From positions 1 to 47,227 of the forward strand of contig JANTGH010000010.1 in NCBI GenBank assembly GCA_024763055.1: DNA of 47,227 bases, written 5' to 3'. This DNA is from Desulfobulbaceae bacterium. Its GTDB lineage: Bacteria > Desulfobacterota > Desulfobulbia > Desulfobulbales > Desulfobulbaceae. The notes under the pieces were generated by a model that was not told the DNA's origin, ran no database searches, and saw nothing but the letters and a program-made list of their open reading frames with translations. The translations under genes were made by a program, and so were the position numbers. Of the stretch, positions 24,597 to 40,739 are shown piece after piece. Within the stretch, counting starts at the first letter, position 1. Every line of letters starts with the position of its first letter.

Positions 24597-26486
24597 ATGC
24601 CGCAATTAATCGTCAGTCAGAACGCATGTAACTATCGCGTTGTACCGTTTACGGACAAGCTTCAAATAGGAAGAGATGCCGACAATGACCTTGTCCTTGA
24701 TTCTCCTCGGGTCTCCCGGCATCATGGCATTATTCATCTTGGAGACGATGGATTTTATCTCACCGATAGCGGGAGCACCAATGGAATCTGGCAAGGAAAC
24801 AAAAAGATCACCTCCCTGCGACTTGCAAATGGTTTTACCTTTAAAATTGTTGATTTTTTCCTTACCTTTATTGACGAGCAGAAACAAAGTCCATCCCGTG
24901 TGTTTGCTACCCAAAACACTCGCTCCTCTCCGGAGCATATGGAAGAAAAAACCATTATTTTGGGTCTGGAATCTTTTTTTCCCGATACGGAAGAGGGAAA
25001 TGCCATTGGCGCTGCTGATAAAAACGGACCGACGAACAATTATTATGCCGATCTGCTTCATGCCATGCACCAGCTTGATCGGATAGATAATGAATCGGAT
25101 TTTTTCTCCGGACTCTTACAAGCCTCCCTTCGGTTAATCCATTGCGAGCAGGGGTTTATCGCCGCCCACGATAAGAAGGGCGATCTTGTTTACCGGGCAA
25201 TGGAAAACCTTGATTTTGATAATGCCGAGAGTCCGATCGACCACGGTCTTATTCACATGGCTCTCAGTAACCGGGAGACTGTATTTCACCCGGTAGCAAC
25301 GGACCAACCTCGTGCCGTTGATGCCTCCGAAAAAAGCAGGCCAGACCTGATTTTTTGCACTCCCTTCTTTTTTGCGGGGAATCCGGAGGGCTGTCTATAT
25401 CTAACCGGCCGGAATAAAAAATTATCGACAGCCACATGCAAGACGCTGATCGACATCCTTGTGCGATATGGTTCCGCCCTCCTGGAACGGATTCGGTATC
25501 AGATCCAGATGACCCAGGAACGGCAAAACCTTAAAAACAGGCTGGAGCTCAAGGATGAAACTATCATCCGCAGTGAGGCCATGATAAGGCTGTACGAAGA
25601 TATCAGGACTATTGGCCCAATCAGTGTCCCGGTGCTTATTCTCGGGGAGGCAGGCACCGGTAAAGAACTGGTGGCCTCGGCACTGCATAGTTTCAGCAAC
25701 AGGCAGGGCGCCTGTCTGACCCTGAACTGTTCAGCTATTCCGGAGGGCATTTTTGAAAGTGAACTGTTTGGCTCGGTCAAGGGAGCATTTCATAATGCCG
25801 TCGACAAGCCCGGTAAACTGGAACTGGCCCATAATGGAACTGTATTTCTTGATGAAATCGGCGATATGGACCTTGTATTGCAACCAAAGCTGCTCCGCTT
25901 TCTTGAAAACAAAGAAATTACCCGTCTTGGTGATATCAGGGTAAAAAAGCTTGATGTCCGAATCATAGCGGCAACCAATCGAAACCTGGAAGAAAAAATT
26001 CGGGACAACACGTTCAGGGAAGATCTTTTCCAGCGGCTTTCCTGTTTTATTCTCAAAGTGCCGCCCCTGCGGGAAAGACAGGAAGACATAGAACCCCTGA
26101 TCCACTTTTTTCTCAAACAGTTTTCCCGGGAATATAACTGGTCGCTTCCCGCCATTGCCGACCCGGTGATCAAGGCGCTGGAGTCCTACTCCTGGCCGGG
26201 TAATATCAGGGAATTGCGCAACAGCGTCCTGCGTCTCAGCGTCCAGGCAAAGGGCAAGACAATTACCATGGACGATCTGGCCCGCATTGGAGATAATTTT
26301 GGACGAGAATCTCTTCGCAAGGTCTCTTCCCTGCCCAGCCTGGAAAAAATGGAACAGAAATATATCCGTCAGGCACTTGATACGGCCAAAGGCAATATAT
26401 CCGAAGCGGCAAAAATTGCCGGCATTGCCCGGTCCACCTTTTACGAAAAGATGAAAAAGTTCCAGATCTCCTCCGATAAAAAATAA
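24597..26486 (+). CDS. FHA-GAF-AAA+-Fis regulator with altered sigma54 loop
   Basis: A 629-residue regulator. Residues 1-95 form an FHA domain (IGRD 24-27, SRHH 40-43, STNG 60-63) binding phosphothreonine. Residues about 140-300 look like a GAF sensor, and 325-555 an AAA+ domain of the sigma54-activator class with Walker A GEAGTGKE (350-357), Walker B VFLDEIGD (416-423) and arginine-finger region FREDLFQRL. A Fis-type HTH closes the protein (SEAAKIAGIARSTFYEKMKK). The sigma54-contact loop reads GAFHNA (396-401) instead of GAFTGA. It opens the cluster of FHA, kinase and phosphatase genes and probably regulates it; whether through sigma54 is doubtful. Confidence 0.9.
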   Translation: MPQLIVSQNACNYRVVPFTDKLQIGRDADNDLVLDSPRVSRHHGIIHLGDDGFYLTDSGSTNGIWQGNKKITSLRLANGFTFKIVDFFLTFIDEQKQSPSRVFATQNTRSSPEHMEEKTIILGLESFFPDTEEGNAIGAADKNGPTNNYYADLLHAMHQLDRIDNESDFFSGLLQASLRLIHCEQGFIAAHDKKGDLVYRAMENLDFDNAESPIDHGLIHMALSNRETVFHPVATDQPRAVDASEKSRPDLIFCTPFFFAGNPEGCLYLTGRNKKLSTATCKTLIDILVRYGSALLERIRYQIQMTQERQNLKNRLELKDETIIRSEAMIRLYEDIRTIGPISVPVLILGEAGTGKELVASALHSFSNRQGACLTLNCSAIPEGIFESELFGSVKGAFHNAVDKPGKLELAHNGTVFLDEIGDMDLVLQPKLLRFLENKEITRLGDIRVKKLDVRIIAATNRNLEEKIRDNTFREDLFQRLSCFILKVPPLRERQEDIEPLIHFFLKQFSREYNWSLPAIADPVIKALESYSWPGNIRELRNSVLRLSVQAKGKTITMDDLARIGDNFGRESLRKVSSLPSLEKMEQKYIRQALDTAKGNISEAAKIAGIARSTFYEKMKKFQISSDKK

Positions 26487-26820
26487 TCCGTCCTCAAAGA
26501 CGATTTTGTATCGTCCGATTTTCATCCACAGTCAATATCTCTCAAAAAAACCTATAAAATTAAATTATTATAGCGTATTTTTCCTGCGGCCTGTCCGATT
26601 TTCGGACAAAAAATTACCTAAAAAGCCCCGTTAAGGAAAAAGCAGTGCTGCACCGGCACCCTTTCCGTCTGCACGAGCCGTTATAACCTGCCGGATAAAC
26701 ATCATTATTCATTTTTCTTCTCCGTTTATTTCCTGTCGGCATCTTGCTTGCTATTCCCTGTATCAGCCGGCGTGGCTCTTGTTCCATTTACTCATCTTTT
26801 CATAGAAAGGAGACGACATT
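26487..26820. other. Regulatory intergenic region ahead of the repeat-protein genes
   Basis: This 334-base gap holds a weak hairpin after the regulator (GACGAT 26500-26505, ATCGTC 26511-26516), a second small dyad GTCCG...CGGAC near 26593-26610 flanked by A/T runs, and a candidate -24/-12 promoter at 26737-26753. No open frame of note is present. GGAG lies about 9 bases before the next start. Confidence 0.5.
26737..26753 (+). promoter_or_regulatory. Candidate sigma54 (-24/-12) promoter
   Basis: The string CGGCATCTTGCTTGCTA keeps the invariant GG (26738-26739) and GC (26750-26751) at the correct 10-base separation; compared with TGGCAC-N5-TTGCW it differs at the first and sixth positions. Transcription would begin near 26762, about 60 bases before the first repeat-protein gene. 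Confidence 0.45.
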
Positions 26821-27396
26821 ATGTTGAAAAAAGCAGCAATCCTTACCCTTGTTCTAATCGGTTCCGCCTCGCTCAGTTTTGCCAACGGGGCAACACATCA
26901 TAACAACAGCCAGACCACCATGATCGGGTCATTCAATGTTGTACCTGCGACAGCGGATACCGAATCGAATTCGGTATCGGCAGGCGACTCTGCTTCCACG
27001 GATACCGGAACCGACGCTGCCGGTGTCGCAACGGATGAGCGCGGATGCAGCACCCTGGTTACCGCCGATATCCATAACAAAATAAAAAAAGCCGGAGACA
27101 TTACCAGTATTGTTGAAAAGGGCAGAAATAATCAGGCCAATGCCGCATCAGTGGTCGTCACCGGTCGAAGCAAGGTTTCCGGCAGCCTGATGAATACGAT
27201 CAACACCAGCGGTGACCTGAAAGCGGTTGTCCGTGGCGGCCGAAACAATCTGGCCAATGCCGGAACCATCTCCGTTAAAGGGGCGGTGTCTTCGGGCACG
27301 GTCATCAATGAGGTAAAAAATACCGGCGATATAACCAGCATCGTGAAACAGGGCCGCAACAACCAGGCCAATGCCGCATCGGTAGCCATTAATTAA
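26821..27396 (+). CDS. Secreted Asn/Gly repeat protein 1
   Basis: A 191-residue protein with a Sec signal peptide (cleavage near SFA-NG). After a Ser/Thr/Asp-rich linker (residues 40-75) come three tandem units of 38-39 residues, each carrying NxI/V-x4-GD(I/L)-x(5)-GRNNxANA followed by a Val/Ser/Gly strand; the G of GRNN falls at residues 101, 140 and 178. Pattern and composition resemble curlin-like or beta-solenoid fibre subunits (compare GxxNxA in CsgA), but I cannot assign a family. It is the first gene of a set with a CsgG-like exporter, supporting a surface fibre or adhesin. GGAG precedes its ATG. Confidence 0.75.
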   Translation: MLKKAAILTLVLIGSASLSFANGATHHNNSQTTMIGSFNVVPATADTESNSVSAGDSASTDTGTDAAGVATDERGCSTLVTADIHNKIKKAGDITSIVEKGRNNQANAASVVVTGRSKVSGSLMNTINTSGDLKAVVRGGRNNLANAGTISVKGAVSSGTVINEVKNTGDITSIVKQGRNNQANAASVAIN

Positions 27397-27411
27397 TTGT
27401 CAGACAAAAGA

Positions 27412-27453
27412 GCCTGTTTCGACCGATGACTGCGGCTACCGGGAGAAACAGGC
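27412..27453 (+). other. Intercistronic inverted repeat
   Basis: A perfect 9-bp inverted repeat, gcctgtttc (27412-27420) and gaaacaggc (27445-27453), with a 24-base loop lies between the two repeat-protein genes, 16 bases after the first stop and about 20 before the second start. There is no T-run, so it may stabilise or process mRNA and set the ratio of the two products. Confidence 0.45.
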
Positions 27454-27472
27454 AAGTTCACGGGAGAATACA

Positions 27473-28069
27473 ATGAAAATTACCGGCATTGCTTTTTCAC
27501 TCTGCCTGCTCTGCTGCCCGATTTCCGGACAGTGCTCGGACCTTCTTGGCCTCCATGTGCGCAACACCGTAACAAACGGATCGTATACCGCAAAAACAAG
27601 GGGAAACAACAATGAGGTCAATGCCGGATCGGTACGGATCGCCCATTCCAGCGGCGGACGAATCTCAAACACCGTCCATGCCGACGGCACAATTTCCGCC
27701 ACCGCTTCCGGAAACCGAAACCGCATAAATTCCGCCTCCGTTATTCTGCGCGACGCTACCGCCGACAAAATAAACAACCAGATCGAAACCGGCAGCATAA
27801 CAAACAATGTTCACGGCGATGACAACATCAGTAATATCGGCTCGGTCATCCTGGATAATTCCGCTGCAGGCACCATTGACTACTCCCTGCGGGCAGGGAA
27901 GGTGCAGAGCAGCATACGCGGCGGCAACAACCGGCTTAACGTCGGCTCGGTGCAGATCGGCAATACCGACCATGGCAATATTTCAGAACATGTTGACATG
28001 GACAATGTCTCGGTCTCCGTCGCCGGCAACAACAAAGATATAGCCGTTGATTCGGTCGTGATTGAATAA
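27473..28069 (+). CDS. Secreted Asn/Gly repeat protein 2
   Basis: A 198-residue protein with a signal peptide (hydrophobic to residue 19, cleavage near GQC-SD) and almost nothing but repeats afterwards. Five units of 35-36 residues each show N-x-V/I...G-x-I...G(N/D)xN-x(2)N-x-(G/A)SV-x-I; the SV dipeptides fall at residues 53, 89, 124, 159 and 194. The register is close to that of repeat protein 1 upstream, so the two may co-assemble as major and minor fibre subunits. GGGAG lies 6 bases before the ATG. Confidence 0.75.
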   Translation: MKITGIAFSLCLLCCPISGQCSDLLGLHVRNTVTNGSYTAKTRGNNNEVNAGSVRIAHSSGGRISNTVHADGTISATASGNRNRINSASVILRDATADKINNQIETGSITNNVHGDDNISNIGSVILDNSAAGTIDYSLRAGKVQSSIRGGNNRLNVGSVQIGNTDHGNISEHVDMDNVSVSVAGNNKDIAVDSVVIE

Positions 28070-28093
28070 AGCATGTCCAGGGAGATCTTATCC

Positions 28094-28429
28094 ATGAAAC
28101 AGTCCATTTCTTTTTTTCTATTCGCCATGCTGTCATGCGGCAGTTTCTGGGCCCCCTGCCGGGCCGATGATCTTGACGACGGCATTGCCATTGATGATTC
28201 CCTAATAGAATACGACCAGATCGGCGACTCTATTGAACCGAACTATTCCTATATTGCCCTCCGGGCTCAAAGTAATGTCGCCGCCCGCTCGGATGCCGGG
28301 ACAGACGACCTGGTGACCGGCGAGGGTTCGGTTTTGAATTCCGTTATCCTTGAAGCGGGAGCCACGGTCCAGGGCGACATCTATATTATAGACCAGTCAA
28401 GGGGCGACAAGACAATCATCACCCAATAG
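28094..28429 (+). CDS. Small secreted protein of the repeat-protein locus
   Basis: A 111-residue protein with a signal peptide (MKQSISFFLFAMLS, cleavage near CRA-DD), an acidic segment and a C-terminal part reading GSVLNSVILEAGATVQGDI, which resembles a single unit of the neighbouring repeat proteins. GGGAG lies 9 bases before the ATG at 28094; an upstream in-frame ATG at 28073 lacks one and spoils the signal peptide. It could be a fibre cap, nucleator or chaperone; no family is recognised. Confidence 0.6.
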   Translation: MKQSISFFLFAMLSCGSFWAPCRADDLDDGIAIDDSLIEYDQIGDSIEPNYSYIALRAQSNVAARSDAGTDDLVTGEGSVLNSVILEAGATVQGDIYIIDQSRGDKTIITQ

Positions 28430-28486
28430 CAATCAATGCAAATTTAATCAAAAGATTAAAAAAATTTTCAATCAGGGGTAAACGTT

Positions 28487-29812
28487 ATGCCAACTCCACA
28501 CTTCAAACCACCCGGATTTTCCACCCTCCGATACTCTTTCTTTTTACTAATCGCGCTTACCCTGCTGCCCGCCTGCGCCAAAATTGATCCACGACAGGTT
28601 GAAGTGGAAATACCCCATGAGGATCCTGTTGTTAAAAGGACCTCCTTTGACCAGGCCTTACACGACCTCGGAACAATGACCGAGGTCTATGGCAAAAGAG
28701 TCATGATTCAAGGCAAGGACATTGTCGATAATACAGGCACTTCAAAATACGGCTTTGGGGAAATCCCGCGCGATATTACCGAAATGACCAAAAGCGCCCT
28801 CAACGCCATCGGCGGCAACGTAGTCTACATCCCCTACAGTCCCGTTTTTTTAAATAATGAAGTCGTCACCGGGTATTCGAGTTTTCAGCATAAATATATT
28901 CCCGACGTTGTGTTATCCGGCGGCATCACCGAATTTGACCGCGGTCTGCAGACGAAGGAACGGGGCACGGATTTCGGCATAACAACACGTCCCTTTAATG
29001 TTAATGAATCATGGGTGCCGGGAGATGTGCTGAGCGCTGATTACAGCCAGGGCAGCAAGGGCAGCCTTGCCCGTATTACCCTGGATTTCAACCTCATTGA
29101 TTTCAAGACCATGTCCGGAATCGGCAGGATGCAGACAGTGAACTCCATTAATGTCTACAAGGCGCTCGCGGAAAAAGAGCTGGGCTTTACCATTTTCGGC
29201 CCCACCTTCGGGTTCAAGGGCACGGTAAAAAAAGTCCAGGGCCGCCACGCGGCCATCCGGCTGCTGGTCCAATCAAGCGTTATGCAGGTGGTCGGAAAAT
29301 ACCTGCATGTTCCCTACTGGAAACTGCTGTCCGGCGCCCAACCCGATCCTGTTGTCACTGACAAGGTGCGCCGGGATTTCCTGCGGCTCAGCTCCCGAAG
29401 CCGGATCCGGGAAATACAATCCATCCTCTTTCTCAAAGGTTTCCCCGTACCGGTTGACGGCACGTTAAACCCGGCAACCATGCAGGCCCTGCGCAAAGTA
29501 AAACCTGGATCAAATCCGGTTACGGCGGCCACGGACACCGCCACCTATATTGAGATCTGGGAATCGCTGGCTGACAATCTTGACCAGGCCCTGGGACGGC
29601 GGGCGCTCCTTGTCAGCAAACTGCAAAAACATCCTTCCAGAAGAAAAGCCAGGGTTTCCCGAAGACAATCCAAACAATCCGCCGGGAAAATCACTGCCGA
29701 CAACAGGCATAAAGGTGATGCATCCGACCAGGATATTGATCGACTGTTACGCAAATTTGACCTTGGAAACGGTTCCACATCAGCAGAGGCATTTATCAAT
29801 GAAAGAAAATAA
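28487..29812 (+). CDS. CsgG-like lipoprotein with peptidoglycan-binding domain
   Basis: A 441-residue lipoprotein: hydrophobic signal and lipobox LPAC with Cys30. Residues about 45-283 have the CsgG/HfaB pattern: a GKDIVDNTG start, PRDITEMTKSALNAIGG, a DVVLSGGITEFDRG strand, ITLDFNLIDFKTM, and a terminal AIRLLVQSSVMQVVGKYL helix. CsgG forms the outer-membrane secretion pore for curli; HfaB does this for holdfast anchor proteins. Residues about 300-340 form a PG_binding_1 domain (IREIQSILFLKGFPVPVDGTLNPATMQAL), a fusion not found in E. coli CsgG. A basic Ser-rich tail follows. The assignment is by reading only. Confidence 0.65.
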   Translation: MPTPHFKPPGFSTLRYSFFLLIALTLLPACAKIDPRQVEVEIPHEDPVVKRTSFDQALHDLGTMTEVYGKRVMIQGKDIVDNTGTSKYGFGEIPRDITEMTKSALNAIGGNVVYIPYSPVFLNNEVVTGYSSFQHKYIPDVVLSGGITEFDRGLQTKERGTDFGITTRPFNVNESWVPGDVLSADYSQGSKGSLARITLDFNLIDFKTMSGIGRMQTVNSINVYKALAEKELGFTIFGPTFGFKGTVKKVQGRHAAIRLLVQSSVMQVVGKYLHVPYWKLLSGAQPDPVVTDKVRRDFLRLSSRSRIREIQSILFLKGFPVPVDGTLNPATMQALRKVKPGSNPVTAATDTATYIEIWESLADNLDQALGRRALLVSKLQKHPSRRKARVSRRQSKQSAGKITADNRHKGDASDQDIDRLLRKFDLGNGSTSAEAFINERK

Positions 29813-30173
29813 TTATCTCATAATAAAGGGTTTTTCCATCGGTGTCATCGCATCCCTGATTCTCATCGCCCTGATGGGCGCGGTCCGTACCGACCAGACC
29901 CCGGGTGAGCCGATCAGCGTCATTCATGGCACAGACAAAGTGGACGTCCCCCTTGCCCGGAACGGCAGGTATCAGGTCACCTCCTGTTCTTTTCTCCCCG
30001 GTTCCGGAAAAAACGGCGGCTACGGTGTTTTTGTCATTGATACCACCACGGGCGTCACTAAGGCTGCCTATGTCACCTTTGTCGATAACCGGGGAAAAAC
30101 CGTCAATGTCAACCAATTGGGAAGACCGTTTTCCCGGATCAAGACCAGCGGCCGGCAAGGAAACCATTATTGA
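29799..30173 (+). CDS. Small membrane-anchored protein downstream of the CsgG-like gene
   Basis: A 124-residue protein with one N-terminal hydrophobic anchor (residues 8-28) and an extracytoplasmic beta-rich part with GVFVIDTTTGVTKAAYVTF. The ATG at 29799 overlaps the end of the CsgG-like gene by 14 bases and has GAGG about 9 bases upstream, implying coupling; the longer open frame to 29550 lies antiparallel in meaning to the CsgG-like gene and is not credible. Possibly an accessory factor playing a CsgE/CsgF-like part, which is pure inference. Its stop codon coincides with the left end of an inverted-repeat element. Confidence 0.6.
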   Translation: MKENNYLIIKGFSIGVIASLILIALMGAVRTDQTPGEPISVIHGTDKVDVPLARNGRYQVTSCSFLPGSGKNGGYGVFVIDTTTGVTKAAYVTFVDNRGKTVNVNQLGRPFSRIKTSGRQGNHY

Positions 30174-30349
30174 TGGCGTCGTAAAAACGTCGATCTACTG
30201 CGTCGTGTGTTCTGGGACGATTCACAACATACTACCTGTATAGTTGAGACCCGTCCCTGAACACTACTCCTCGGAGTCTACGCTTACCTGTATATCTGTG
30301 TTTTTACTTAGCCATCTTTGAGCATATTAAGACTTTTTACGGATCCATC
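30172..30349. repeat. MITE-like inverted-repeat element C
   Basis: A 178-bp element whose left end gatggcgtcgtaaaaacgtc (30172-30191) and right end gactttttacggatccatc (30331-30349) are inverted repeats with one gap and few mismatches. A nested pair, gtgttctgggacga (30207-30220) and ccgtccctgaacac (30251-30264), matches at 12 of 14 positions, so the element can form a branched cruciform. The 18-bp core cggagtctacgcttacct occurs at 30272-30289. It separates the secretion genes from the VWA-kinase genes and overlaps the stop codon on its left. Confidence 0.75.
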
Positions 30350-30417
30350 ATTATTAACAATTCGACAAAAAATAATGCACTAAAAACTGAATGCATCCAC
30401 GAAAAAAGGAGAACAAA

Positions 30418-31575
30418 ATGAATACACAATTATTCAAAACCATCCGGTGGTTTGTACCGGCAATTGCGGCCATGATGCTGACTATCGGACTTTCAGCCGG
30501 ATACGGGCATGCGGCGACCAAGGCCGCTCCCAATCTTCAGGGATACGGGCTGAAAATCTTTCGGGTGGAATCCGGCCTGTACCCCTTTGTTCATGTCTAT
30601 ATCCGCACCTTTGACCAGAAGATGAACCCCTTGCTGAATCTGAACAAAATGAATATCGGCATGATGGTCAAGGGACGGGTCTATGATCCCGATAAAAATC
30701 AATATATCATCCAGCCGCTGCAGAAACGCGGCGAGGCGGTACGCTCCGTCCTGGTCATCGACACTTCAAAAACCATGAAAGGGATTCCCTTTGAGGCCGC
30801 CCTGCGGGCGGCGGCCAGGTTCATTGACGCCAAGCGGCCGCAGGACCAGGTGGCTATCATTGCCCTTGATGATAACAGTGAAGGATATAGCATTGTTTCC
30901 AATTTTGAACGTGATTACGGAACACTGGGACGTCGACTTGCCGACCTGCACGCAACCGGTGAAAAAACCCGGCTTTATGACGGCATCGCCGCGGCCATGG
31001 AGCTGACTGCCGGTTCAGGGCCGGGCAGCGACGCCCTGAGTAAAGAAGATTATATCGTCTCCTCCTCCATTATTGTCCTCTCCGACGGCAAGGATGAAAA
31101 CAGCGCCGTCAGCCGCTCGGATCTTATGACCAGGATTTCGACTATGAAACTGCCGATTCCCCTGTTTTCCATAGCCTTTTCCAAAATAGGCGAGAAACAC
31201 CTTCGCAACCTGCAGGCCTTGTCGAAAAACACCTTCGGAAAATATTATCGAATCGACCAAAAATATAACAACATCACTCGCAGTGTTGAGGATATTCAAA
31301 ATATCCTGCAAAGTGATTATGTGCTTACCTTTCGCGCCTATGTTCCCGTGGACGGAGAAAAACACAGCCTGAAAGTCGGCATAGAATATCCCACCGGCAG
31401 CGGCAAGATGCGGTATGACGGCGGAACCTTTGAAGCGCTCGAACCCCCTCCTCTGCCCCAAATCCTCGCCGCCCAGGACAAACTGGACAAGATTCTGCCC
31501 AACTTGCAGGGCAACAGTCCCTACCTGCTCAATCCCTATACAACGGGCCCGAAAGCCCTGGCCCTGTCGCGGTAA
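30418..31575 (+). CDS. Secreted von Willebrand factor A domain protein
   Basis: A 385-residue protein with a signal peptide (cleavage near GHA-AT). A short N-terminal beta region leads to a VWA domain whose metal-binding MIDAS begins DTSKT (Asp115), a Thr-for-Ser variant of DxSxS; further MIDAS residues are likely in EKTRLYDG and VLSDGKDENS. A C-terminal beta domain follows (RAYVPVDGEKHSLKVGI). GGAG lies close before the ATG at 30418. VWA proteins in phosphorylation loci often act as assembly or binding scaffolds; 30 bases separate it from the FHA-ABC gene. Confidence 0.82.
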   Translation: MNTQLFKTIRWFVPAIAAMMLTIGLSAGYGHAATKAAPNLQGYGLKIFRVESGLYPFVHVYIRTFDQKMNPLLNLNKMNIGMMVKGRVYDPDKNQYIIQPLQKRGEAVRSVLVIDTSKTMKGIPFEAALRAAARFIDAKRPQDQVAIIALDDNSEGYSIVSNFERDYGTLGRRLADLHATGEKTRLYDGIAAAMELTAGSGPGSDALSKEDYIVSSSIIVLSDGKDENSAVSRSDLMTRISTMKLPIPLFSIAFSKIGEKHLRNLQALSKNTFGKYYRIDQKYNNITRSVEDIQNILQSDYVLTFRAYVPVDGEKHSLKVGIEYPTGSGKMRYDGGTFEALEPPPLPQILAAQDKLDKILPNLQGNSPYLLNPYTTGPKALALSR

Positions 31576-31605
31576 TTCTTCAAGATTTTCTATCACCCCT
31601 TTTTT

Positions 31606-34242
31606 ATGACCAAACAGCGGTCTCCATCACACATCGACCCTCGCCATCAAGGCAAGAGTCGATGTTCAGTATCTGCCTTTCTGCAGACAAGTGGACCGGG
31701 GCCGGACTGCAGAATGTATCCGCTCACCGGCAAACCGCTCATCATAGGGCGGGACTCTGAAGAATGTGATATCATCCTTACGGGAGAATCCATTTCCAGG
31801 ACCCATGCCCGTATTGAGTCGCTGGACAATGGCGGGTTCCGGATCACCAATCTTGAATCGACCAATGGTCTTTATCTCAATACGAAAAAGATCAACACCT
31901 CCTGTCTGATTACCCACAACGATATCATAGGGCTCGGCTGCCCGGGCACCGCCCACCTGCGTTTTCTTCACGCCCCGTGTGACCGGCTGCCCCAGGCTGA
32001 TATTCTCCCGCCTCAATCACTGTGGACCATCGGCCGCCGTCCGGACTGCGACATCTGCCTGCCGTTCATCCCCACGGTCAGCGGCCATCACGCCACCCTG
32101 CAGGCCCAAGGCGGAAAACTTCAACTCATTGACAAGTCAAGTCTGAACGGAACCTGGGTCAACGGCCGACCTGTTCAATCGGCATCACTTGATTGCAATG
32201 ATATCGTTGTTATCGGCACAACCGAGCTACGCTGTCACCTGTTAAAGAACGGCGCCTTGCAGGTGGAGCGTCGACAGCGAGCCGGGAAACTCCGTCTCAG
32301 CTGCTCAGGCCTCACCTGCGAATCAGGAAAAGAAAAATCGCCCATACTCAAGAATATAGACCTGGTGATCACTCCCGGTGAATTTGTGGGTATTTTAGGC
32401 CCAAGCGGCGCGGGAAAGACGACCCTGCTGCAAAGTCTCAGCGGCCGGCGGCTCCCGGATTCCGGCACGGTACTGCTTGACGATACTCCGCTGTACGATA
32501 CCAGAGCGATGTTTCGCAATCAGCTCGGCTATGTGCCCCAGGATGATATTCTCCACCCGGAACTGAGTGTCGAGGTGAGCCTGAATGCTATTGCCCGGCT
32601 TCGTTTGCCACTGGATATTACTCTTGACCAGCGTCAGGACATTGTCAACCGGATCCTTATTCTTCTTGACCTGAACAGGGTGCGCAGCTTACGAATTGGT
32701 CAGCTCAGCGGCGGACAGCGCAAACGGGTATCAATTGGGGCGGAGCTGATCACCCGGCCGGGTCTGTTGTATCTCGACGAGCCCGTATCCGGACTTGATC
32801 CCGGGATTGCCGCCAAGCTCATGCTTCATTTCAAAACCATGACCAGGGCCGGCACCACGGTCATCATGACCACCCACAGTTTAGATGCCCTTGAACTCGT
32901 CGACAAAATTGTTCTGCTCGCCAAGGGTGAAATGGTATTTTTCGGCACTCCGGCGGAGGCAATGGACTTTTTTTCCGAACAGACAGGCCATTTGATTGCC
33001 GAACCGGTGGAGCTTTTCCATCTCCTGGACAGAGGAGTGATCAAAGAATCGCTTTCTTCACCTTCACAGGGCCACATAAGTCGCCGAACCCTTGCGATTC
33101 TGTACGCTGAAAGATACCGAAAATCCCCCTATTATAACGCAAACATCCGCAATAAAAATCCCCGGCTGCAAAACACCCTGATCACACGCCGGCAACAGGA
33201 AATGGGCGTCATTACTGCCCGGCCATCCAATCATCTAACCGGGGCTATTGAAAAAAAAGGGCGTTTCCCCTTCTCCCCTGCCCACTGGTACTGTCTCTCC
33301 AGGCGCCACATCATGATCAGGCTCGGCGCTCCGAAACGTATCATCACCTACGCGCTGATTCCCGTGCTTCTGGCCCTCGTGACCCTGACTCTGGACATCA
33401 AGGGTTTCCCAAATCAACAAATCAGCGCCATGCGCAGGCAATCCGTGGAGTTACAGTTGCGACATGACGGGCCACAACTCGAGGTTACGATAAAAAAACT
33501 GCTGTCTCCCGAGGGAATTCTTGATTCCAGGCCAGCCTGGCGGATTATCCATGCCCTGCGCTACGAGGGACCCGCCAACCTGCCGGTACCTATCAGTGTT
33601 CTTTTGATGGGCATTATGACCGCTGTTTTTTTAGGTACTGTTTCGAGCTGTCTTGAACTTTCCCCGGAGCGGCAAATTTATCTGCGGGAACGGATGGCCG
33701 GAATGCGTATTTTTGATTATATCGCCTCAAAACTGCCGTTCTGCCTGACCATAACCGGGCTGCAATGCCTTCTCTTTATCAGCTGCTGCGCCCTGCATCC
33801 AAACCTTGGCCGCCTGCCCTTCCTGCCGATCTACTGTACCCTTGTCCTTGTGGCCTGGACTTCGGTCGCCACGGGATTGTTTATCAGCAGCCTCGACCCG
33901 ACCCCGGGCCGATTTTCCGTTTTGCTTGCTGTTGCCGCCGTCCTGCCGCAACTCATCCTCTCCGGCGGCCTGGGACCCAACTTTTTCGCGGATATGCACA
34001 CGATAACCCGCATCCCGGCATCACTGCTTCCCGCAAAATGGGGTCTTGCCATGGAATTAACCGCTGTCTATGACAGCAACCCCAACACAGCCCTCTCCTG
34101 GATACCGGATTGTATTGAACAGGTAATCGGATTTGACTATGGAAGTTCAGTTTACTATCATGGAACCAGTGTCCTGGCAGTCCAGTCTCTTGTCTGGCTG
34201 CTGCTCTGCGCCTGGCTCCTGAAACGGCGCGATCCTCTCTGA
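31606..34242 (+). CDS. FHA-FHA-ABC transporter fusion (ABCG/Rv1747-like)
   Basis: An 878-residue half-transporter. FHA domain 1 spans about residues 38-115 (IIGRDSEECD, SISRTHARI, ESTNGLYL), FHA domain 2 about 138-210 (IGRRPDCDI, SGHHATLQ, SSLNGTWVNG). The ABC domain (about 230-460) has Walker A GPSGAGKT (265-272), signature LSGGQRKRVS from 367 and Walker B LLYLDEP (387-393). The C-terminal ~300 residues hold six hydrophobic segments of the ABC2 type. Mycobacterial Rv1747 has the same order and is phosphorylated by PknF. The adjacent kinase and phosphatase here imply a similar control. Substrate unknown. Confidence 0.92.
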   Translation: MTKQRSPSHIDPRHQGKSRCSVSAFLQTSGPGPDCRMYPLTGKPLIIGRDSEECDIILTGESISRTHARIESLDNGGFRITNLESTNGLYLNTKKINTSCLITHNDIIGLGCPGTAHLRFLHAPCDRLPQADILPPQSLWTIGRRPDCDICLPFIPTVSGHHATLQAQGGKLQLIDKSSLNGTWVNGRPVQSASLDCNDIVVIGTTELRCHLLKNGALQVERRQRAGKLRLSCSGLTCESGKEKSPILKNIDLVITPGEFVGILGPSGAGKTTLLQSLSGRRLPDSGTVLLDDTPLYDTRAMFRNQLGYVPQDDILHPELSVEVSLNAIARLRLPLDITLDQRQDIVNRILILLDLNRVRSLRIGQLSGGQRKRVSIGAELITRPGLLYLDEPVSGLDPGIAAKLMLHFKTMTRAGTTVIMTTHSLDALELVDKIVLLAKGEMVFFGTPAEAMDFFSEQTGHLIAEPVELFHLLDRGVIKESLSSPSQGHISRRTLAILYAERYRKSPYYNANIRNKNPRLQNTLITRRQQEMGVITARPSNHLTGAIEKKGRFPFSPAHWYCLSRRHIMIRLGAPKRIITYALIPVLLALVTLTLDIKGFPNQQISAMRRQSVELQLRHDGPQLEVTIKKLLSPEGILDSRPAWRIIHALRYEGPANLPVPISVLLMGIMTAVFLGTVSSCLELSPERQIYLRERMAGMRIFDYIASKLPFCLTITGLQCLLFISCCALHPNLGRLPFLPIYCTLVLVAWTSVATGLFISSLDPTPGRFSVLLAVAAVLPQLILSGGLGPNFFADMHTITRIPASLLPAKWGLAMELTAVYDSNPNTALSWIPDCIEQVIGFDYGSSVYYHGTSVLAVQSLVWLLLCAWLLKRRDPL

Positions 34243-34275
34243 AACACTGTCACCCCGACAGAGGGAAGGTAACGC

Positions 34276-35697
34276 GTGGACAGAACTTCCAGTAACGGGC
34301 CGATTTTTGCCCCGCACCAAGACAAATATATCGGCCGAAAACTGGCTGAACGCTACGTTTTTATCAAAATCCTCGGTACGGGCGGAACCGGCACGGTCTA
34401 CCTCTGTGACGACCTGCTGCTCCACCGCAAGGTTGCCGTCAAAACCATTCTCCCTGCTCTGGCCGACAACCTTGATATCCGCCGCCGTATTGACCGTGAA
34501 TGTCGATTGCATGCCGCCATCGGCGTGCACCCACATATCATCACTCTGTATGACAAGCTTGAGCAGGATGGTCAAATCTTCCTGATCATGGAATATGTCC
34601 GTGGAGAATCCCTGTCCGATATACTCCTGAAAGAAACCGGCAAGGGCGACATACTATGGAAAGTTGATAATGTTATTTCGCTGATCCAACAAATCCTGCA
34701 GGCTATTGGTTGCATTCATGATCATGGAATCCTGCACCGGGACATCAAAACATCAAATATTCTCATCTGCAAACAGGAAGACAACAATTACCTCGCCAAA
34801 CTGATGGATTTCGGGATTGCCAGGATGGAGGAAGATGAAGAGGCGCTCACCCGACTGACACAACTTGACACCTCGGGCCCGGGAACCCCGACCTATATGG
34901 CGCCTGAACGAATTGATCCGCAGAAATTCGGCGAAAGCTGCCCTGCCACCGATCTCTATTCAGTCGGCGTCATTCTGTACCAACTCCTCAGTAACGGACC
35001 GCCTTTCCAGGGAACAATCAGTGAAATTTTCAACGGACACCTGCACCAACCCGTTGACCTGAGCAGGCTGAACGATGTGGTTTCTGCCAGCCTGCGCAGT
35101 ATAATTATCAAGGCATTGGCCAAGAATCCCGGCGACCGTTTTGCAGATGCGGATTCTTTTGCCCATGCGCTGCCAGGTGAAAAGAAATCCATCACCGTGC
35201 CAATAACAGGCAGCAAATCCGAAGAAGAGGTAACCTTGCCGGTCATTGATCTTCCTGATGCCCATGGAGTGGAATCCACCCTGCTGGCCCCGGAACCAAA
35301 GAATACGGACAGGCGTTTACCCAGGCAAAAAATGCGGCGCCGATACCTTCCTCTTTTTGCCATCGGGCTTCTGAGCTGTTTTATCTTTTTTATAATTCTC
35401 CGCTTTGTCCTCCGATCCGGGGACGACGGGCAGCCGTCCTCACAAGTCGCCACCCAAACAGAAAACAGTGCACAGCATCCCAAGGCAAAAGTGATTCGAA
35501 CGCTTCCTGTTGTTAGCAAAAATGCCGTAAAAATAACGACAACAGCTATGGATGCCTTACGGGATTCACGGACAACGGCGCAGGAAACTCAAAATGGTTT
35601 AACCATTGATGGCACGTTCAATGAACGCCCTTCTACGGAAGGTTCCGACTGGCAAGTCCTGGAAAGCAGCGCCAGCAGGATAGATAAGAAGCAATAA
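34276..35697 (+). CDS. Transmembrane Ser/Thr protein kinase (PknB family)
   Basis: A 473-residue Hanks-type kinase. Catalytic elements: glycine loop GTGGTGT (34-40), Lys56 in VAVK, HRDIKTSN (154-161), DFG (178-180) and GTPTYMAPE ending at Glu211, with several Thr residues in the activation loop. A transmembrane helix at about 357-379 leaves a 94-residue Ser/Thr/Gln-rich extracytoplasmic tail without PASTA repeats. The start is a GTG with AAGG six bases upstream. It lies 33 bases after the FHA-ABC gene and its stop overlaps the next start, so the kinase, lipoprotein and phosphatase are coupled. Likely targets are the FHA-partner threonines of the neighbouring transporter and regulator. Confidence 0.92.
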   Translation: MDRTSSNGPIFAPHQDKYIGRKLAERYVFIKILGTGGTGTVYLCDDLLLHRKVAVKTILPALADNLDIRRRIDRECRLHAAIGVHPHIITLYDKLEQDGQIFLIMEYVRGESLSDILLKETGKGDILWKVDNVISLIQQILQAIGCIHDHGILHRDIKTSNILICKQEDNNYLAKLMDFGIARMEEDEEALTRLTQLDTSGPGTPTYMAPERIDPQKFGESCPATDLYSVGVILYQLLSNGPPFQGTISEIFNGHLHQPVDLSRLNDVVSASLRSIIIKALAKNPGDRFADADSFAHALPGEKKSITVPITGSKSEEEVTLPVIDLPDAHGVESTLLAPEPKNTDRRLPRQKMRRRYLPLFAIGLLSCFIFFIILRFVLRSGDDGQPSSQVATQTENSAQHPKAKVIRTLPVVSKNAVKITTTAMDALRDSRTTAQETQNGLTIDGTFNERPSTEGSDWQVLESSASRIDKKQ

Positions 35698-36308
35698 TGT
35701 TTAATCTGGTGAAAAAACACCCTGCATCCTTCTTGGGCGCAGTGGCAGGTTGTACGGCACACTTCCTCCTGACTGCTGTCTGCCTGGTCTTGTTGCTCCT
35801 GCAGGGATGTGCCCCCCTTATTCTTGCCGCCGGGGCCGGAGCCGGTTATCTCGCTGTCGATAAGCGGGCAGCCCGCAAGGTTGATCAGTCTCTCCGGGAT
35901 CTGAGTAAATCAATTACTATCTCTTCACGCCGTATATTGGGAAACAGGCGAACCGAAAAAAAATACCGCTATAAACGGGGCTCCGGGTCGACAGTGCGTC
36001 TGCAAGAAACATCACTGGCTCCGGGTACTGTCCATCGGGGTGACAGGGTAACCAGTATTTTAGTCTATGGCGTGCTGGGTGCGCCTGCTGATGGACTCAT
36101 TATCAGGGAAAAAAGAGAGCTTTGGTTTAACAACAAAAAACTTTGCACCCTTCGGGATGAATCAATATCAAGAAAAAACGGGACCTGGAAAAGCCGCCTG
36201 GTTTTTAAAGTACCAGGATCGGCTGCGAATGGAACTTATATCGTGAAACAACAGATCAGCTACAAAGGGAAAAAACAACGCTCCAAAAAGGAGTTTATCG
36301 TACGATGA
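35697..36308 (+). CDS. Probable lipoprotein between kinase and phosphatase
   Basis: A 203-residue protein with a long N-terminal region, a hydrophobic core and a lipobox-like LQGC (Cys38), then GAGAGYLAVDKR and a basic linker. The C-terminal 110 residues are beta-rich and Ig-like (GDRVTSILVYGVLG, KRELWFNNKK, GTYIVKQQISY). The ATG overlaps the kinase stop by one base and the gene overlaps the phosphatase start by four bases. It may be an extracytoplasmic partner or ligand-sensing component for the kinase; no family is recognised. Confidence 0.7.
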   Translation: MFNLVKKHPASFLGAVAGCTAHFLLTAVCLVLLLLQGCAPLILAAGAGAGYLAVDKRAARKVDQSLRDLSKSITISSRRILGNRRTEKKYRYKRGSGSTVRLQETSLAPGTVHRGDRVTSILVYGVLGAPADGLIIREKRELWFNNKKLCTLRDESISRKNGTWKSRLVFKVPGSAANGTYIVKQQISYKGKKQRSKKEFIVR

Positions 36309-37087
36309 AAGCCGAAGAGGGACAGACGCAAATCGGCGATTTTCTTGTTGAGTATGCCGGTTATTCCGATACCGGAAGCGTGCGCAGCATAAACGAGGAT
36401 GATTTTCTCCTCCTGCCCGATAAAGGGGTCTTTTGCCTGACGGACGGCCTCGGCGGTGAGGAACATGGGGAGATAGCCTCTGCCATTGCCCTGGAGAGTA
36501 TTAAAACGCTCATCGCAACGCCTGGACGGGTTTCATTGTTTTCCTTCAGGAAAAAGAGCTGCTCACTGCGGCAGATGATTCATCACGCCAACAAGAGCGT
36601 CTATGAAAAACGCAGATCACTGCGGCTGAACGCGGCCGCGACAATTGTCATGCTCCAAGTGAATGCCACCGGCGTTGAAGTCGCTAATGTCGGAGACAGC
36701 CGCATGTATCAATGGAACGGACAGTCGCTTATCCAGTGCACAAGAGACCATTCTCTGATTGAAGAATTATGCCGGGACAACATCCTCTCCAGAGAACAGA
36801 CCGACAACCATCCGCAACGACATATTATCACCCGTGCCCTGGGCGCAAAAAGTGAGATTCAGGCCTATATCAAAAAAATTGACATCCAAAAAGGCAATCT
36901 GATACTGCTCTGTTCCGACGGGCTGACAACCATGCTGGCCCATCGGGAAATTGAATCTATTTTCAGCAGATACCACACCGATGTTCAACGGACCGGTCGC
37001 GCATTAATCACGGCGGCAAACGATGCAGGCGGCAGGGACAATATAACCGTCATTCTTCTCCATCTAAACACAAACAACTGCCATTGA
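36305..37087 (+). CDS. PP2C-family protein phosphatase
   Basis: A 260-residue Mn/Mg-dependent Ser/Thr phosphatase. Metal-binding residues appear in SINEDD (Glu31-Asp32), LTDGLGGEEHG (Asp47, Gly48), VANVGDSR, LLCSDGL (Asp205) and GGRDNITVI (Asp245); this matches the full PPM motif set of PstP/PrpC enzymes. The start ATG overlaps the preceding stop (ATGA). It reverses the kinase and ends the operon, converging on the pst gene cluster with only 19 bases to the small membrane gene on the other strand. Confidence 0.92.
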   Translation: MKAEEGQTQIGDFLVEYAGYSDTGSVRSINEDDFLLLPDKGVFCLTDGLGGEEHGEIASAIALESIKTLIATPGRVSLFSFRKKSCSLRQMIHHANKSVYEKRRSLRLNAAATIVMLQVNATGVEVANVGDSRMYQWNGQSLIQCTRDHSLIEELCRDNILSREQTDNHPQRHIITRALGAKSEIQAYIKKIDIQKGNLILLCSDGLTTMLAHREIESIFSRYHTDVQRTGRALITAANDAGGRDNITVILLHLNTNNCH

Positions 37088-37307: not shown

Positions 37308-38192
37308 TTACCCGAATCGACCGGTAATGTAATCTTCGGTGAGTTTATGGCGTGGATTGGTAAAGATCAGGTCGGTAGAGCCCACCTCAATCAGGTCGCC
37401 GAGATGAAAGTATGCCGTACGCTGAGAAACCCGGGCGGCCTGCTGCATGTTATGGGTGACAATGACGATGGTGTACTGCTCCTGCAGTTCGGCGATCAGG
37501 TCTTCAACGGTTGCTGTGGCAATGGGATCAAGGGCTGAGCAGGGCTCGTCCATGAGGATGACCTCGGGCCGGACGGCAATGGCACGGGCAATGCAGAGCC
37601 GCTGCTGCTGGCCACCGGACAGTCCCGTACCCGATTGGTCCAACCGATCGTTGACCTCGTCCCAAAGGCCGGCCTTTTTCAGGGAACTCTCCACGATTTC
37701 GTCCATTTCCGAACGGTTGGAAGCCAGGCCGTGAATCTTCGGTCCGTAAGCGATGTTGTCATAGATGGACTTGGGAAAGGGGTTGGGCTTCTGAAAGACC
37801 ATACCCACCTGGGCTCTGAGAGGAACAACATCCACGGAGCGATCGTAGATATCCAGATCGTCCAGCTTGATTTCTCCTGTCACGCGACAGGTGTCGATGG
37901 TATCATTCATCCGGTTCAGGCAGCGGAGAAAGGTGGATTTACCGCAACCGGACGGTCCGATCATGGCCAGAACCTGATTCTTACCCACGTCGATGGAAAC
38001 ATCTTTTATGGCGTGCTTGTCCCCATAATAGACGTTGACATTGCGGCAGGTCATACGTCCATTGTCAACAAAAGGTTCGCCGACGGTCTGCCGGTCATCC
38101 AGATCTGTATTTTCGTGAGCTACGCTATACTCGCCTGCAACAGTAGCTGTGTTCAATAATGCTGCCTCAGTGGACTGCAGAGCCTCTTCCAT
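37308..38192 (-). CDS. pstB: Phosphate ABC transporter ATP-binding protein
   Basis: A 294-residue ATPase: Walker [10 protein letters not shown]-loop [11 protein letters not shown], signature LSGGQQQR, Walker [15 protein letters not shown]-loop VTHNM. It energises PstCA for high-affinity phosphate uptake. The chosen start adds a 46-residue acidic extension before the usual beginning at [11 protein letters not shown]; an internal start at that Met is the alternative. A hairpin-containing gap separates it from pstS. Confidence 0.95.
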
Positions 38193-38222
38193 AATTGTTG
38201 TTTATTCTGAAAATTGATGGAA

Positions 38223-38260
38223 GATACTGCCGGGAGCCGGATAAGACTTCCGGCAGTATC
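38223..38260 (-). other. Intercistronic hairpin between pstS and pstB
   Basis: A perfect 11-bp inverted repeat, gatactgccgg (38223-38233) and ccggcagtatc (38250-38260), with a 16-base loop just after the pstS stop. No T-run follows on the minus strand. It probably stabilises the pstS message or causes partial termination, raising PstS over PstB. Confidence 0.65.
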
Positions 38261-38274
38261 CAATAGATAATGAT

Positions 38275-39327
38275 TTACTTCAGGACGAGCGGTTTAAGGG
38301 CCCCTGCGTCTGCAGCGAACTGTTTACGTTCCGCGTCGGGTGCCGGAATCAGCCCCTTGTCGGCCAGGTAACCGTCCGGTCCCCAGGCCTTTTCACTGGT
38401 GAATTCGGCAACATACTCGGGTATGCCCGGCACAACACCAACATGACTGTCTTTTATATAAAAATAGAGCGGTCGGGATACCGGGTACTTGCCGGCGGCA
38501 ATATTTTCAAAGGTCGGGGCCTGGCCGCCCACAATGGAGCCCTGGATCTTGTCCGCGTTCTGGTCCAGGTAAGAGAAACCGAAGATACCCAGAGCCATGG
38601 GATTGGCCTCCAGCTTCTGGACGATCAGGTTGTCGTTCTCGCCGGCCTCTATATAGGCGCCGTCTTCACGCACGGTATGGCAGATTCCCTTGTATTGTTT
38701 CTTGTCCTTTTTCTTGATGGCCTTGATCCAGCCAATCTTTTTACACCCACCTTCCATGGCCAGCTCGGCAAAGGCATCACGGGTTCCGGAGGTCGGGGGA
38801 GGTCCCATCACCTCGATCTTGTTGTCAGGCAGGGACGGATTGACATCTTTCCAGGTTTTGTAGGGATTGGCAACCAGTTTTTCTCCACCCTTGGGGTCCG
38901 GCACGTCCTTGGCCAGAGCCAGGAAGATGTCCTTTTTGGTCAGTTTCATCTGCGGGGCGGACTTGGCATTGGCCAGCACGATACCGTCATAACCGATTTT
39001 AACTTCAGTGATGCCCTTGACCCCGTTTTTCTGGCATTTTTCATACTCCGATTTTTTGATCCGCCGTGAGGCGTTGGTAATGTCCGGAGTATCGATTCCG
39101 TTGCCTGCGCAAAACAGCTTCATACCGCCGCCGGATCCGGTAGATTCGATCTTCGGGGTTTTAAAACGTGTTGTCTTGCCGAACTGCTCGGCCACGGTGG
39201 TGGCAAAGGGGTAGACCGTGGATGAGCCGACAATGGCAATGTAGTTACGGCCGGCTGCCTGGCTGTTCTGGGCAAGGGAGCCGATGAGCAGGGATGCAGC
39301 CATGAGTGTCAGACCTTTTTTCAACAT
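38275..39327 (-). CDS. pstS: Periplasmic phosphate-binding protein
   Basis: A 350-residue substrate-binding protein with a Sec signal peptide (hydrophobic to residue 18, cleavage near SQA-AG). Phosphate-contact motifs are IVGSSTVYPFA, ESTGSGGGMKLFC and, later, PPTSGTRDAF. GGAGG lies about 5 bases before the ATG. A three-unit Pho-box-like repeat sits about 60-95 bases upstream. It delivers phosphate to PstCA. Confidence 0.95.
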   Translation of the reverse strand: MLKKGLTLMAASLLIGSLAQNSQAAGRNYIAIVGSSTVYPFATTVAEQFGKTTRFKTPKIESTGSGGGMKLFCAGNGIDTPDITNASRRIKKSEYEKCQKNGVKGITEVKIGYDGIVLANAKSAPQMKLTKKDIFLALAKDVPDPKGGEKLVANPYKTWKDVNPSLPDNKIEVMGPPPTSGTRDAFAELAMEGGCKKIGWIKAIKKKDKKQYKGICHTVREDGAYIEAGENDNLIVQKLEANPMALGIFGFSYLDQNADKIQGSIVGGQAPTFENIAAGKYPVSRPLYFYIKDSHVGVVPGIPEYVAEFTSEKAWGPDGYLADKGLIPAPDAERKQFAADAGALKPLVLK

Positions 39328-39387
39328 GATGTCCTCCTTTTAGTGTTGGTAAGAGCTTTTGAATCAGCAGATAAAGTAACATGATAA

Positions 39388-39420
39388 TGTTCGATTTAAG
39401 TTAGGAACAGGTTAATTTTT
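39388..39420 (-). promoter_or_regulatory. Pho-box-like 11-bp repeats upstream of pstS
   Basis: Read on the plus strand, three 11-bp units follow each other exactly: tgttcgattta, agttaggaaca, ggttaattttt, each with GTT at positions 2-4. The 11-base period and place upstream of pstS match PhoB tandem binding sites; a second array lies at 42835. Confidence 0.6.
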
Positions 39421-39470
39421 GATCATGAATCGCCAGTCCATGCTGTGCGGAAGCTTGCAACTCCCGATAT

Positions 39471-40739
39471 CTACCAGCGCCTCTCGAATTTACGCCGGAA
39501 AAAGACGGCAATCCCGTTCATACAGATCAGGAAGAAGAGCAGCACCATGATAGCGGCGGATGTCAAAGCCACAAAGGCGCGTTCCGGAGAATCAGCCCAC
39601 AGGTAGATCTGTACCGGCAGAACAGCCGCCGGGTCGGTAAAGCCGCCGGGGACATCGACGATAAAAGCCACCATGCCGATCATCAGCAGGGGCGCTGTCT
39701 CACCCAGGGCCTGGGCCATGCCGATGATGGTGCCGGTCAGCATCCCGGGCAGGGCCAGAGGCAGAATGTGATGGGTGATGGTTTGCATCCTGGACGCGCC
39801 AACTCCGAGCGCGGCCTCCCGAATGGAGGGTGGGACCGATTTCAGGGAGGCCCGCGAGGCAATGATGATGGTGGGCAGGGTCATGAGTGTCAGGACCAGG
39901 CCGCCGACCAGGGGTGATGAACGGGGCATATGAAAAAAGTTGAGAAACACGGCCAGACCCAGCAGACCGAAAACAATGGACGGTACGGCGGCCAGATTAT
40001 TGATATTAACCTCTATCAGATCGGTCCAGCGGTTGCAGGGAGCAAACTCCTCCAGGTAGATCGCTGCGGCCACGCCAATGGGAAAGGAAAGGGCCAGTGT
40101 GACGATCAATGTATAGAGTGAACCAACGACCGCTCCACGAATCCCTGCCAGCTCAGGTTCCCTGGAGTCGCCGGCGGTAAAAAAAATGGTGTTGAAGCTC
40201 TTTTTTATCCGCCCTTCTGCCGAAAGTGTATCAATCCAGTGTATCTGGTTGTCTTTCAGGCGTCGATCGGATTCCGGCAGATCACGGGCAATATACCCCT
40301 TGTTGAACAGGTCGACTTCATCGTCGGCCGGCAGCCAGATTTTCCTGGTGGTGCCGATGAGTGAGGGATCGTGCCTGACCATATCCTGGAGGGTAAAGGA
40401 GGCGCCGGAACTGACAAGTTTGTACAGTTTTCGTTTGTCCCGGCGGCCCTTGACCCCGGGGAACAGCACCCGAAGACTGTTTTTGACCAGGGCGCCGTAG
40501 TTAGCCGCCGCCAGGTTGTCAACGCCGAACTCGCTTTTATCGAAGTGGATATTCAGCAGGATTTCAGTTCGAAAAAAAGCCGGCCAGCCATTGGCCGCAA
40601 TGGAGATAAAAAGCAGCCCCAGAAAACAGATGCTGGTAACAATGGCGGACAGTCCCAGCCGTCGGAAATTCCGTTCCCGCCGGTATCGTTTTGCCAGGCC
40701 GCGATTGACCAGCTCCATGGTTGATGGTTGCTTATTCAT
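39471..40739 (-). CDS. pstA: Phosphate ABC transporter permease PstA (with N-terminal extension)
   Basis: A 422-residue permease, longer than E. coli PstA (about 296). The N-terminal ~190 residues form the DUF3333-type module (RGLAKRYRRERNFRRLGL, one helix, then a soluble region) found in a subset of PstA proteins; the C-terminal part has the permease domain with the EAA-like loop REAALGVGASRMQTITH. The ATG at 40739 overlaps the pstC end by 8 bases. Confidence 0.93.
   Translation of the reverse strand: MNKQPSTMELVNRGLAKRYRRERNFRRLGLSAIVTSICFLGLLFISIAANGWPAFFRTEILLNIHFDKSEFGVDNLAAANYGALVKNSLRVLFPGVKGRRDKRKLYKLVSSGASFTLQDMVRHDPSLIGTTRKIWLPADDEVDLFNKGYIARDLPESDRRLKDNQIHWIDTLSAEGRIKKSFNTIFFTAGDSREPELAGIRGAVVGSLYTLIVTLALSFPIGVAAAIYLEEFAPCNRWTDLIEVNINNLAAVPSIVFGLLGLAVFLNFFHMPRSSPLVGGLVLTLMTLPTIIIASRASLKSVPPSIREAALGVGASRMQTITHHILPLALPGMLTGTIIGMAQALGETAPLLMIGMVAFIVDVPGGFTDPAAVLPVQIYLWADSPERAFVALTSAAIMVLLFFLICMNGIAVFFRRKFERRW

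Follow-up and report, generated by a model that had tools for sequence, protein, structure and literature searches.

A candidate CsgG-type surface-protein export or anchoring operon with a putative Ser/Thr phospho-signalling layer in Desulfobulbaceae

Most of what is known of CsgG-type secretion comes from curli and the holdfast anchor, and CsgG has found wide use as a nanopore. The curli system (PMC3521004) offers one parallel for the locus described here. Others are the HfaA-HfaB-HfaD proteins of Caulobacter, in which a CsgG-like lipoprotein is required to put two secreted proteins on the cell surface (PMC6707917), and the Rv1747-PknF pair of Mycobacterium, described as a two-gene operon of an FHA-FHA-ABC exporter and an adjacent Ser/Thr kinase (PMC3908365). 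The locus lies at 24597-37087 of a 47,227-nucleotide stretch of DNA (hereafter the window; positions 1 to 47,227 of contig JANTGH010000010.1, assembly GCA_024763055.1) from a Desulfobulbaceae bacterium. It is a run of eleven co-oriented plus-strand genes in the order FHAreg-RepA-RepB-SmC-CsgGL-SmMem-VWA-FHAABC-STK-LP-PP2C. Gene order and domain types, as seen in open reading frames and in Pfam and NCBIfam scans of the operon proteins, agree with a preliminary description of the sequence. The block is, on balance, probably a curli-like (CsgG-type) operon for the export or anchoring of surface proteins, with a built-in Ser/Thr phospho-signalling layer.

The distribution of the block was followed by whole-genome searches, a scan of named Desulfobulbaceae metagenome-assembled genomes, and neighbourhood reading; 74 genomes of one Desulfobulbaceae-level family were compared. 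Within the limits of the contigs, 15 genomes from four genera share an identical eleven-gene order and orientation. Strong matches to the CsgG-like protein occur in 15 of the 74 genomes, and all 15 also carry the VWA gene (Fisher p ~9e-15, uncorrected for relatedness). Identity of orthologs to the window proteins ranges from 24% (SmMem, in one genome) to 78% (CsgGL and VWA). The catalytic residues of the kinase (VAIK Lys, HRD, and DFG Asp/Gly) are intact in 14/14, nearly all FHAABC orthologs retain the FHA Arg/Ser/Asn residues and the ABC motifs, and the regulator keeps its FHA Arg/Ser/Asn residues in every ortholog covering the domain. Because order, co-occurrence, and catalytic, FHA and ABC residues are conserved, selection very probably maintains the block as a functional unit, which a minority of the family carries. 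Recurrence of the kinase, phosphatase and FHA-ABC genes with the export block, as the preliminary description proposed, is seen in these 15 genomes of one family. A kinase block separated from the CsgG-like block, which it had named as contrary evidence, was not found among the 74 genomes, apart from one ambiguous case at a contig edge (G005, discussed below).

The same description divided the genes into two closely spaced sub-blocks (26.8-30.2 and 30.4-37.1 kb). A gap of 217 base pairs (bp) between SmMem and VWA does separate them in the window, but the gap shrinks to ~30-80 bp in several relatives, so that both sub-blocks probably form one operon behind the regulator gene. SmMem starts at 29799 and thus overlaps the CsgG-like gene, and the STK, LP, and PP2C genes are mutually overlapping.

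CsgGL (28487-29812) is a predicted CsgG-like outer-membrane lipoprotein with a C-terminal peptidoglycan-binding-like domain. Its lipobox cysteine (Cys30) is kept in 22 of 23 CsgG-like sequences. A Pfam scan of the window protein left the CsgG family (PF03783) unmatched and gave a weak peptidoglycan-binding match (E 0.12), and phmmer with the single sequence and a nine-member profile against PDB returned no useful match. Among 17 members of the protein family, Pfam CsgG is matched in seven (E up to 1, best E 0.0016) and PG_binding_1 in nine (best E 4.4e-5), the peptidoglycan-binding-like domain following the CsgG-like part. L033 scores 16.9 bits against PF03783, under the curated cut-off of 20.8. 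In hhalign, the 17-member profile aligns with 19 CsgG-family sequences, including E. coli CsgG, at a probability of 92 and E 5.7e-7. The alignment covers nearly the whole length of CsgG, including both stretches that bear its membrane hairpins. Sixty column-shuffled profiles gave E values of at least 0.054, and the reversed profile gave 0.21. A three-sequence CsgG profile yielded a non-significant E of 0.074, leaving the 19-sequence profile alone as decisive.

The AlphaFold2 (AF2) model of CsgGL is poor, with a predicted local distance difference test score (pLDDT) of 52. Its best PDB matches are all CsgG chains, which take ranks one to seven and align over greater lengths (Foldseek E 6e-3; VIA Z 9.1, root-mean-square deviation (rmsd) 4.8, 164 residues aligned); no Foldseek match of the model has E <0.001. 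Judged by profile comparison, the window protein is a divergent CsgG homolog. The CsgG-like assignment in the preliminary description is therefore upheld by deep profile-profile comparison, with the fold matches of a poor model pointing the same way, and not by a plain Pfam scan, and its peptidoglycan-binding domain is recognisable in the family and faint in the window protein. Failure to match CsgG by profile search, also named there as contrary evidence, is true of the single-sequence Pfam scan and false of the family profile.

Other CsgG-like genes occur in the family. Elsewhere in the window genome, three genes exceed the PF03783 cut-off (L041-L043, on contigs C153, C148, and C37); repeat proteins of the RepA/RepB family were not recognised beside them. 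Three genomes of the same genus (G005, G004, and G001) encode paralogous CsgG-like lipoproteins (L037, L038, and L039) with 29-34% identity, representing a further branch of the protein family. Small secreted, solenoid-looking proteins lie upstream of these genes, together with OmpA-like proteins in L037 and L038 and a DUF4384 domain in L037.

RepA (26821-27396) and RepB (27473-28069) are secreted Asn/Gly repeat proteins. In all fully read genomes, RepA has a variable linker followed by three repeats at a spacing of 38-39 residues; RepB has five repeats, counted by eye. The two proteins are homologous (hhalign E 4.5e-10), and RepB also aligns with the repeat proteins encoded beside distant CsgG-like genes (hhalign E 1.5e-12, score 82.8, against a shuffled maximum of 15.1). 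These alignments unite RepA, RepB, and the distant repeat proteins in a single family. The AF2 model of RepB is a beta-solenoid (pLDDT 82, predicted template modelling score 0.75). Its top Foldseek match is FapC, at a weak E of 4.9e-3 and probability of 0.09, and the comparison with the CsgA fibril is likewise weak (VIA Z 10.3, rmsd 8.8). Because these matches are weak and beta-solenoids readily match one another, the amyloid character of RepB is a suggestion only.

The repeat proteins were also considered as curlin homologs, an assignment rejected on three grounds: they lack the QxGxxN motif, they have no Pfam curlin match, and hhalign to CsgA/B aligns only 1-15 residues. A search of the window genome for a further RepB-like gene found none. 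An apparently very long RepA at L101, with a 771-residue open frame, was discarded when the true start gave a protein of 186 residues with three repeats. At two distant loci (L036, 13683-18201; L062, 4548-11725), repeat proteins of 275 to 1172 residues lie near a CsgG-like gene. CsgA homologs have been reported with varied lengths.

Outside the family, a CsgG-like gene occurs with repeat proteins, and usually with SmC, in further families of the same order and of the phylum (Desulfobacterota) and in methanotroph Gammaproteobacteria. SmC (28073-28429) is a small secreted protein that belongs to the conserved core of the locus, and its homologs adjoin the CsgG-like gene in both groups. Leaving aside distant loci in which a contig end interrupts the gene, repeat proteins are present by hand count at 11 of 12; L031, the one without them, is truncated downstream. 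Further neighbours at distant loci include LPP20-like, GIN (DUF2807), OmpA-like, or SmMem proteins. The VWA gene is family-specific, with only weak VWA relatives in the rest of the phylum. Most simply, the ancestral unit would comprise a repeat protein, SmC, and the CsgG-like lipoprotein, and the phospho-signalling layer is, on this distribution, a lineage-specific addition in the family studied here. The partnership of repeat proteins and CsgG-like gene anticipated by the preliminary description is therefore conserved across two phyla. Its neighbourhood prediction for Desulfobacterota holds for this pairing; the kinase and phosphatase accompany it repeatedly within the one family.

A conserved -24/-12 (sigma54-type) element, YTGGCAY-N5-TTGCW, lies between the regulator gene and RepA in 14/14 genomes with 0-1 mismatches (TCGGCATCTTGCTTGCT at 26736-26752 on the plus strand of the window). 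A raw scan of the window for sigma54 sites performs no better than chance (19 matches against 25.9 expected); the site is convincing because it is conserved across genomes, not from that scan. Further upstream is a 17-bp palindrome, TGTCCGATTTTCGGACA (26592-26608, strand unassigned), the sole site with at most one mismatch in the 4.17-Mb window genome. In 12 of the 14 genomes a script located this candidate activating site 135-148 bp upstream of the -24 box; for the remaining two it picked the second site instead, and a degenerate copy of the palindrome stands near the usual position. Exact matches to the degenerate palindrome are present in 11 of the 15 operon genomes, each time within this locus, whereas the 59 other genomes have none (Fisher 3e-10). 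A second activator-like site, CGTCCGATTTTCATCCA (26512-26528, plus strand), lies 80 bp upstream of the palindrome, and a related TGTCCGnTTTTCCTACA-like element is the script's best match 78-80 bp from the palindrome in 11 of the 14 genomes.

This arrangement is as expected for a predicted sigma54 activator, and the neighbouring gene encodes one with an FHA domain: FHAreg (24597-26486) is an FHA-GAF-AAA+(sigma54 activator type)-HTH_8 protein (Pfam FHA 3.8e-16; Sigma54_activat, PF00158, 6.3e-56; HTH_8, PF02954, 1.3e-12). Because a conserved sigma54-type promoter and an activator palindrome precede RepA, the FHA-AAA+ regulator probably drives the operon, and it would do so by binding the palindrome. 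The preliminary description had the kinase and phosphatase gating both the ABC transporter and the regulator. Of these routes, that through the regulator would be the more concrete link from kinase to export, since the promoter and the activator sites, both conserved, put the operon under the probable control of FHAreg. A second copy of the palindrome is found within the signal-peptide codons of RepB (27515-27531), with two mismatches in the window and a pattern-exact sequence at the same offset in G460 and G027; it could be an internal operator or reflect codon constraint.

The remaining genes supply the membrane and signalling components. SmMem (29799-30173) encodes a small, membrane-anchored periplasmic protein whose homologs also adjoin CsgG-like genes beyond the family. 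VWA (30391-31575) encodes a secreted VWA-domain protein (Pfam VWA_2 6.8e-11). Its metal-ion-dependent adhesion site (MIDAS) residues are complete in the window protein, but orthologs differ at these positions (S126 to N, D232 to S); metal binding is therefore unlikely to be its conserved role. FHAABC (31606-34242) is an FHA-FHA-ABC-ABC2 transporter with Rv1747-like architecture (Pfam 2xFHA, ABC_tran, and ABC2_membrane), and STK (34276-35697) is a Hanks-type Ser/Thr kinase with one transmembrane segment (Pkinase 1.1e-49). LP (35697-36308), a lipoprotein conserved in the block, overlaps the STK and PP2C genes and matched no Pfam family above cut-off. PP2C (36305-37087) is an Stp1/IreP-type phosphatase (NCBIfam NF033484 6.8e-64 at 215.5 bits, below the cut-off of 230; Pfam PP2C_2 1.3e-8). 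The flanks, identified by eye, appear unrelated: a minus-strand EF-G-like gene upstream and a minus-strand Pst phosphate-transport cluster (PstB, PstS, and PstA-like) downstream at 37308-40850.

In the proposed mechanism, RepA and RepB would cross the inner membrane via their signal peptides. A ring of the CsgG-like lipoprotein, attached to peptidoglycan through its C-terminal domain, would then serve as their export channel or anchor. Once outside, they may assemble into beta-solenoid, possibly amyloid-like, surface structures, with SmC and SmMem acting in the periplasm as accessory factors dedicated to the system. The transmembrane kinase and PP2C would set a phospho-threonine state, and FHA domains would read it at two places: the AAA+ regulator, which would turn on the sigma54-type promoter ahead of RepA, and the FHA-FHA-ABC exporter. 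Phospho-threonine control of both export-operon transcription and the FHA-ABC exporter appears to be the most economical reading. Within this scheme, the export of RepA and RepB, fibre assembly, the phosphorylation targets, and the roles of VWA, LP, and the ABC exporter are all putative.

Several observations weigh against this model. Kinase, FHA, FHA-ABC, and VWA genes are absent at the repeat/CsgG loci read outside the family, and the kinase layer would therefore be dispensable for core function. The regulator loop at residues 396-401 reads GAFHNA (GA[FY]H[NDE]A in all orthologs) in place of GAFTGA, which is unusual for a sigma54 activator. CsgE and CsgF have no Pfam match among the operon proteins, and the cargo has no curlin repeats. 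Other CsgG-fold lipoproteins, namely TraT and PelC, also match the CsgGL model; because they do so and because that model is poor, we only infer that the lipoprotein may form a pore. Finally, G005 carries VWA-FHAABC-STK at the edge of a contig (L100, contig C87), and the repeat/CsgG block was undetected in that genome, which may be an assembly gap or a genuine case of the kinase block alone.

The pore question leads to the most serious alternative, in which the CsgG-like protein is an anchor and not an exporter: a periplasmic or outer-membrane ring, comparable to HfaB, PelC, or TraT, would tie surface beta-solenoids or polysaccharide to the wall, and the FHA-ABC protein would export a separate lipid or glycan. 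The presence of PelC and TraT among the structural matches, the peptidoglycan-binding domain on the protein itself, the membership of HfaB in the holdfast anchor complex (PMC6707917), and the GIN/DUF2807 and OmpA proteins adjoining distant members all point this way. The leading structural ranks and longer alignments of CsgG chains, the near-complete profile match spanning both membrane hairpins, and a constant partner drawn from the repeat-protein family argue for export instead, making a pure anchor somewhat unlikely.

Two further explanations concern the signalling genes. The repeat/CsgG operon and the kinase/FHA-ABC cassette could be functionally unlinked neighbours joined in the family ancestor, as might be expected from the core standing alone outside the family, from the 217-bp gap between sub-blocks in the window, and from G005 if it holds the kinase block only. 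This appears improbable given a gene order and co-occurrence that hold throughout four genera at moderate sequence identity, the FHA domain carried by the upstream regulator, the conserved promoter/palindrome pair, and the shorter SmMem-VWA gap in relatives. Equally, pairs of Hanks kinases and PP2C phosphatases and Rv1747-type FHA-ABC proteins are tied to cell-envelope functions in other bacteria, as with Rv1747-PknF (PMC3908365), and the locus might be mainly an envelope-stress or wall-growth signalling system with the repeat proteins as minor effectors. Its patchy presence (15/74 genomes) is more in keeping with an accessory surface trait than with a core function of the envelope, and RepA and RepB come first after the conserved promoter, so that this explanation is very improbable. 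The preferred model remains a CsgG-type export or anchoring operon under phospho-signalling control.

A wider and more tentative proposal, to which we give slightly less than even weight, is that the locus belongs to a CsgG-dependent amyloid-like fibre system separate from curli, with its own repeat family, in Desulfobacterota and methanotroph Gammaproteobacteria; one lineage would have added Hanks kinase/PP2C control through the FHA domains of a sigma54-type regulator and an ABC exporter. If true, a second, curlin-independent cargo family and a peptidoglycan-anchored CsgG relative would widen the CsgG-type secretion class. With a Ser/Thr kinase, a phosphatase, an FHA regulator, and a sigma54-type promoter all built in, the locus would also offer a testable case of Hanks-kinase control of surface fibres in a Gram-negative-type bacterium. 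No account of this system was found in the open-access literature searched, which does not prove absence.

Compared with known systems, the block resembles curli (CsgA/B-CsgG) in its CsgG-homologous lipoprotein, its adjoining genes for small secreted Asn/Gly-rich repeat proteins, and its predicted beta-solenoid cargo. Unlike curli, its cargo has 38-39-residue repeats that are not curlin-homologous, it lacks CsgE/CsgF, its CsgG-like protein bears a C-terminal peptidoglycan-binding-like domain, and it includes a kinase/FHA/PP2C layer. Since curlin repeats, CsgE, and CsgF were looked for in the operon proteins and not found, the block, as far as its sequence indicates, operates in the manner of a CsgG export or anchoring system without being curli. 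HfaABD, compared by description, likewise combines a CsgG-like lipoprotein with secreted surface proteins; HfaA is described as curlin-like, unlike the repeat proteins of the block, and we know of no kinase, FHA, or ABC genes with HfaABD. In common with Rv1747-PknF, the block has an exporter with FHA-FHA-ABC-ABC2 domain order and a kinase gene next to it, whereas the mycobacterial pair is described as a two-gene operon with neither repeat proteins nor a CsgG-like lipoprotein and serves a mycobacterial, not a Gram-negative, envelope.

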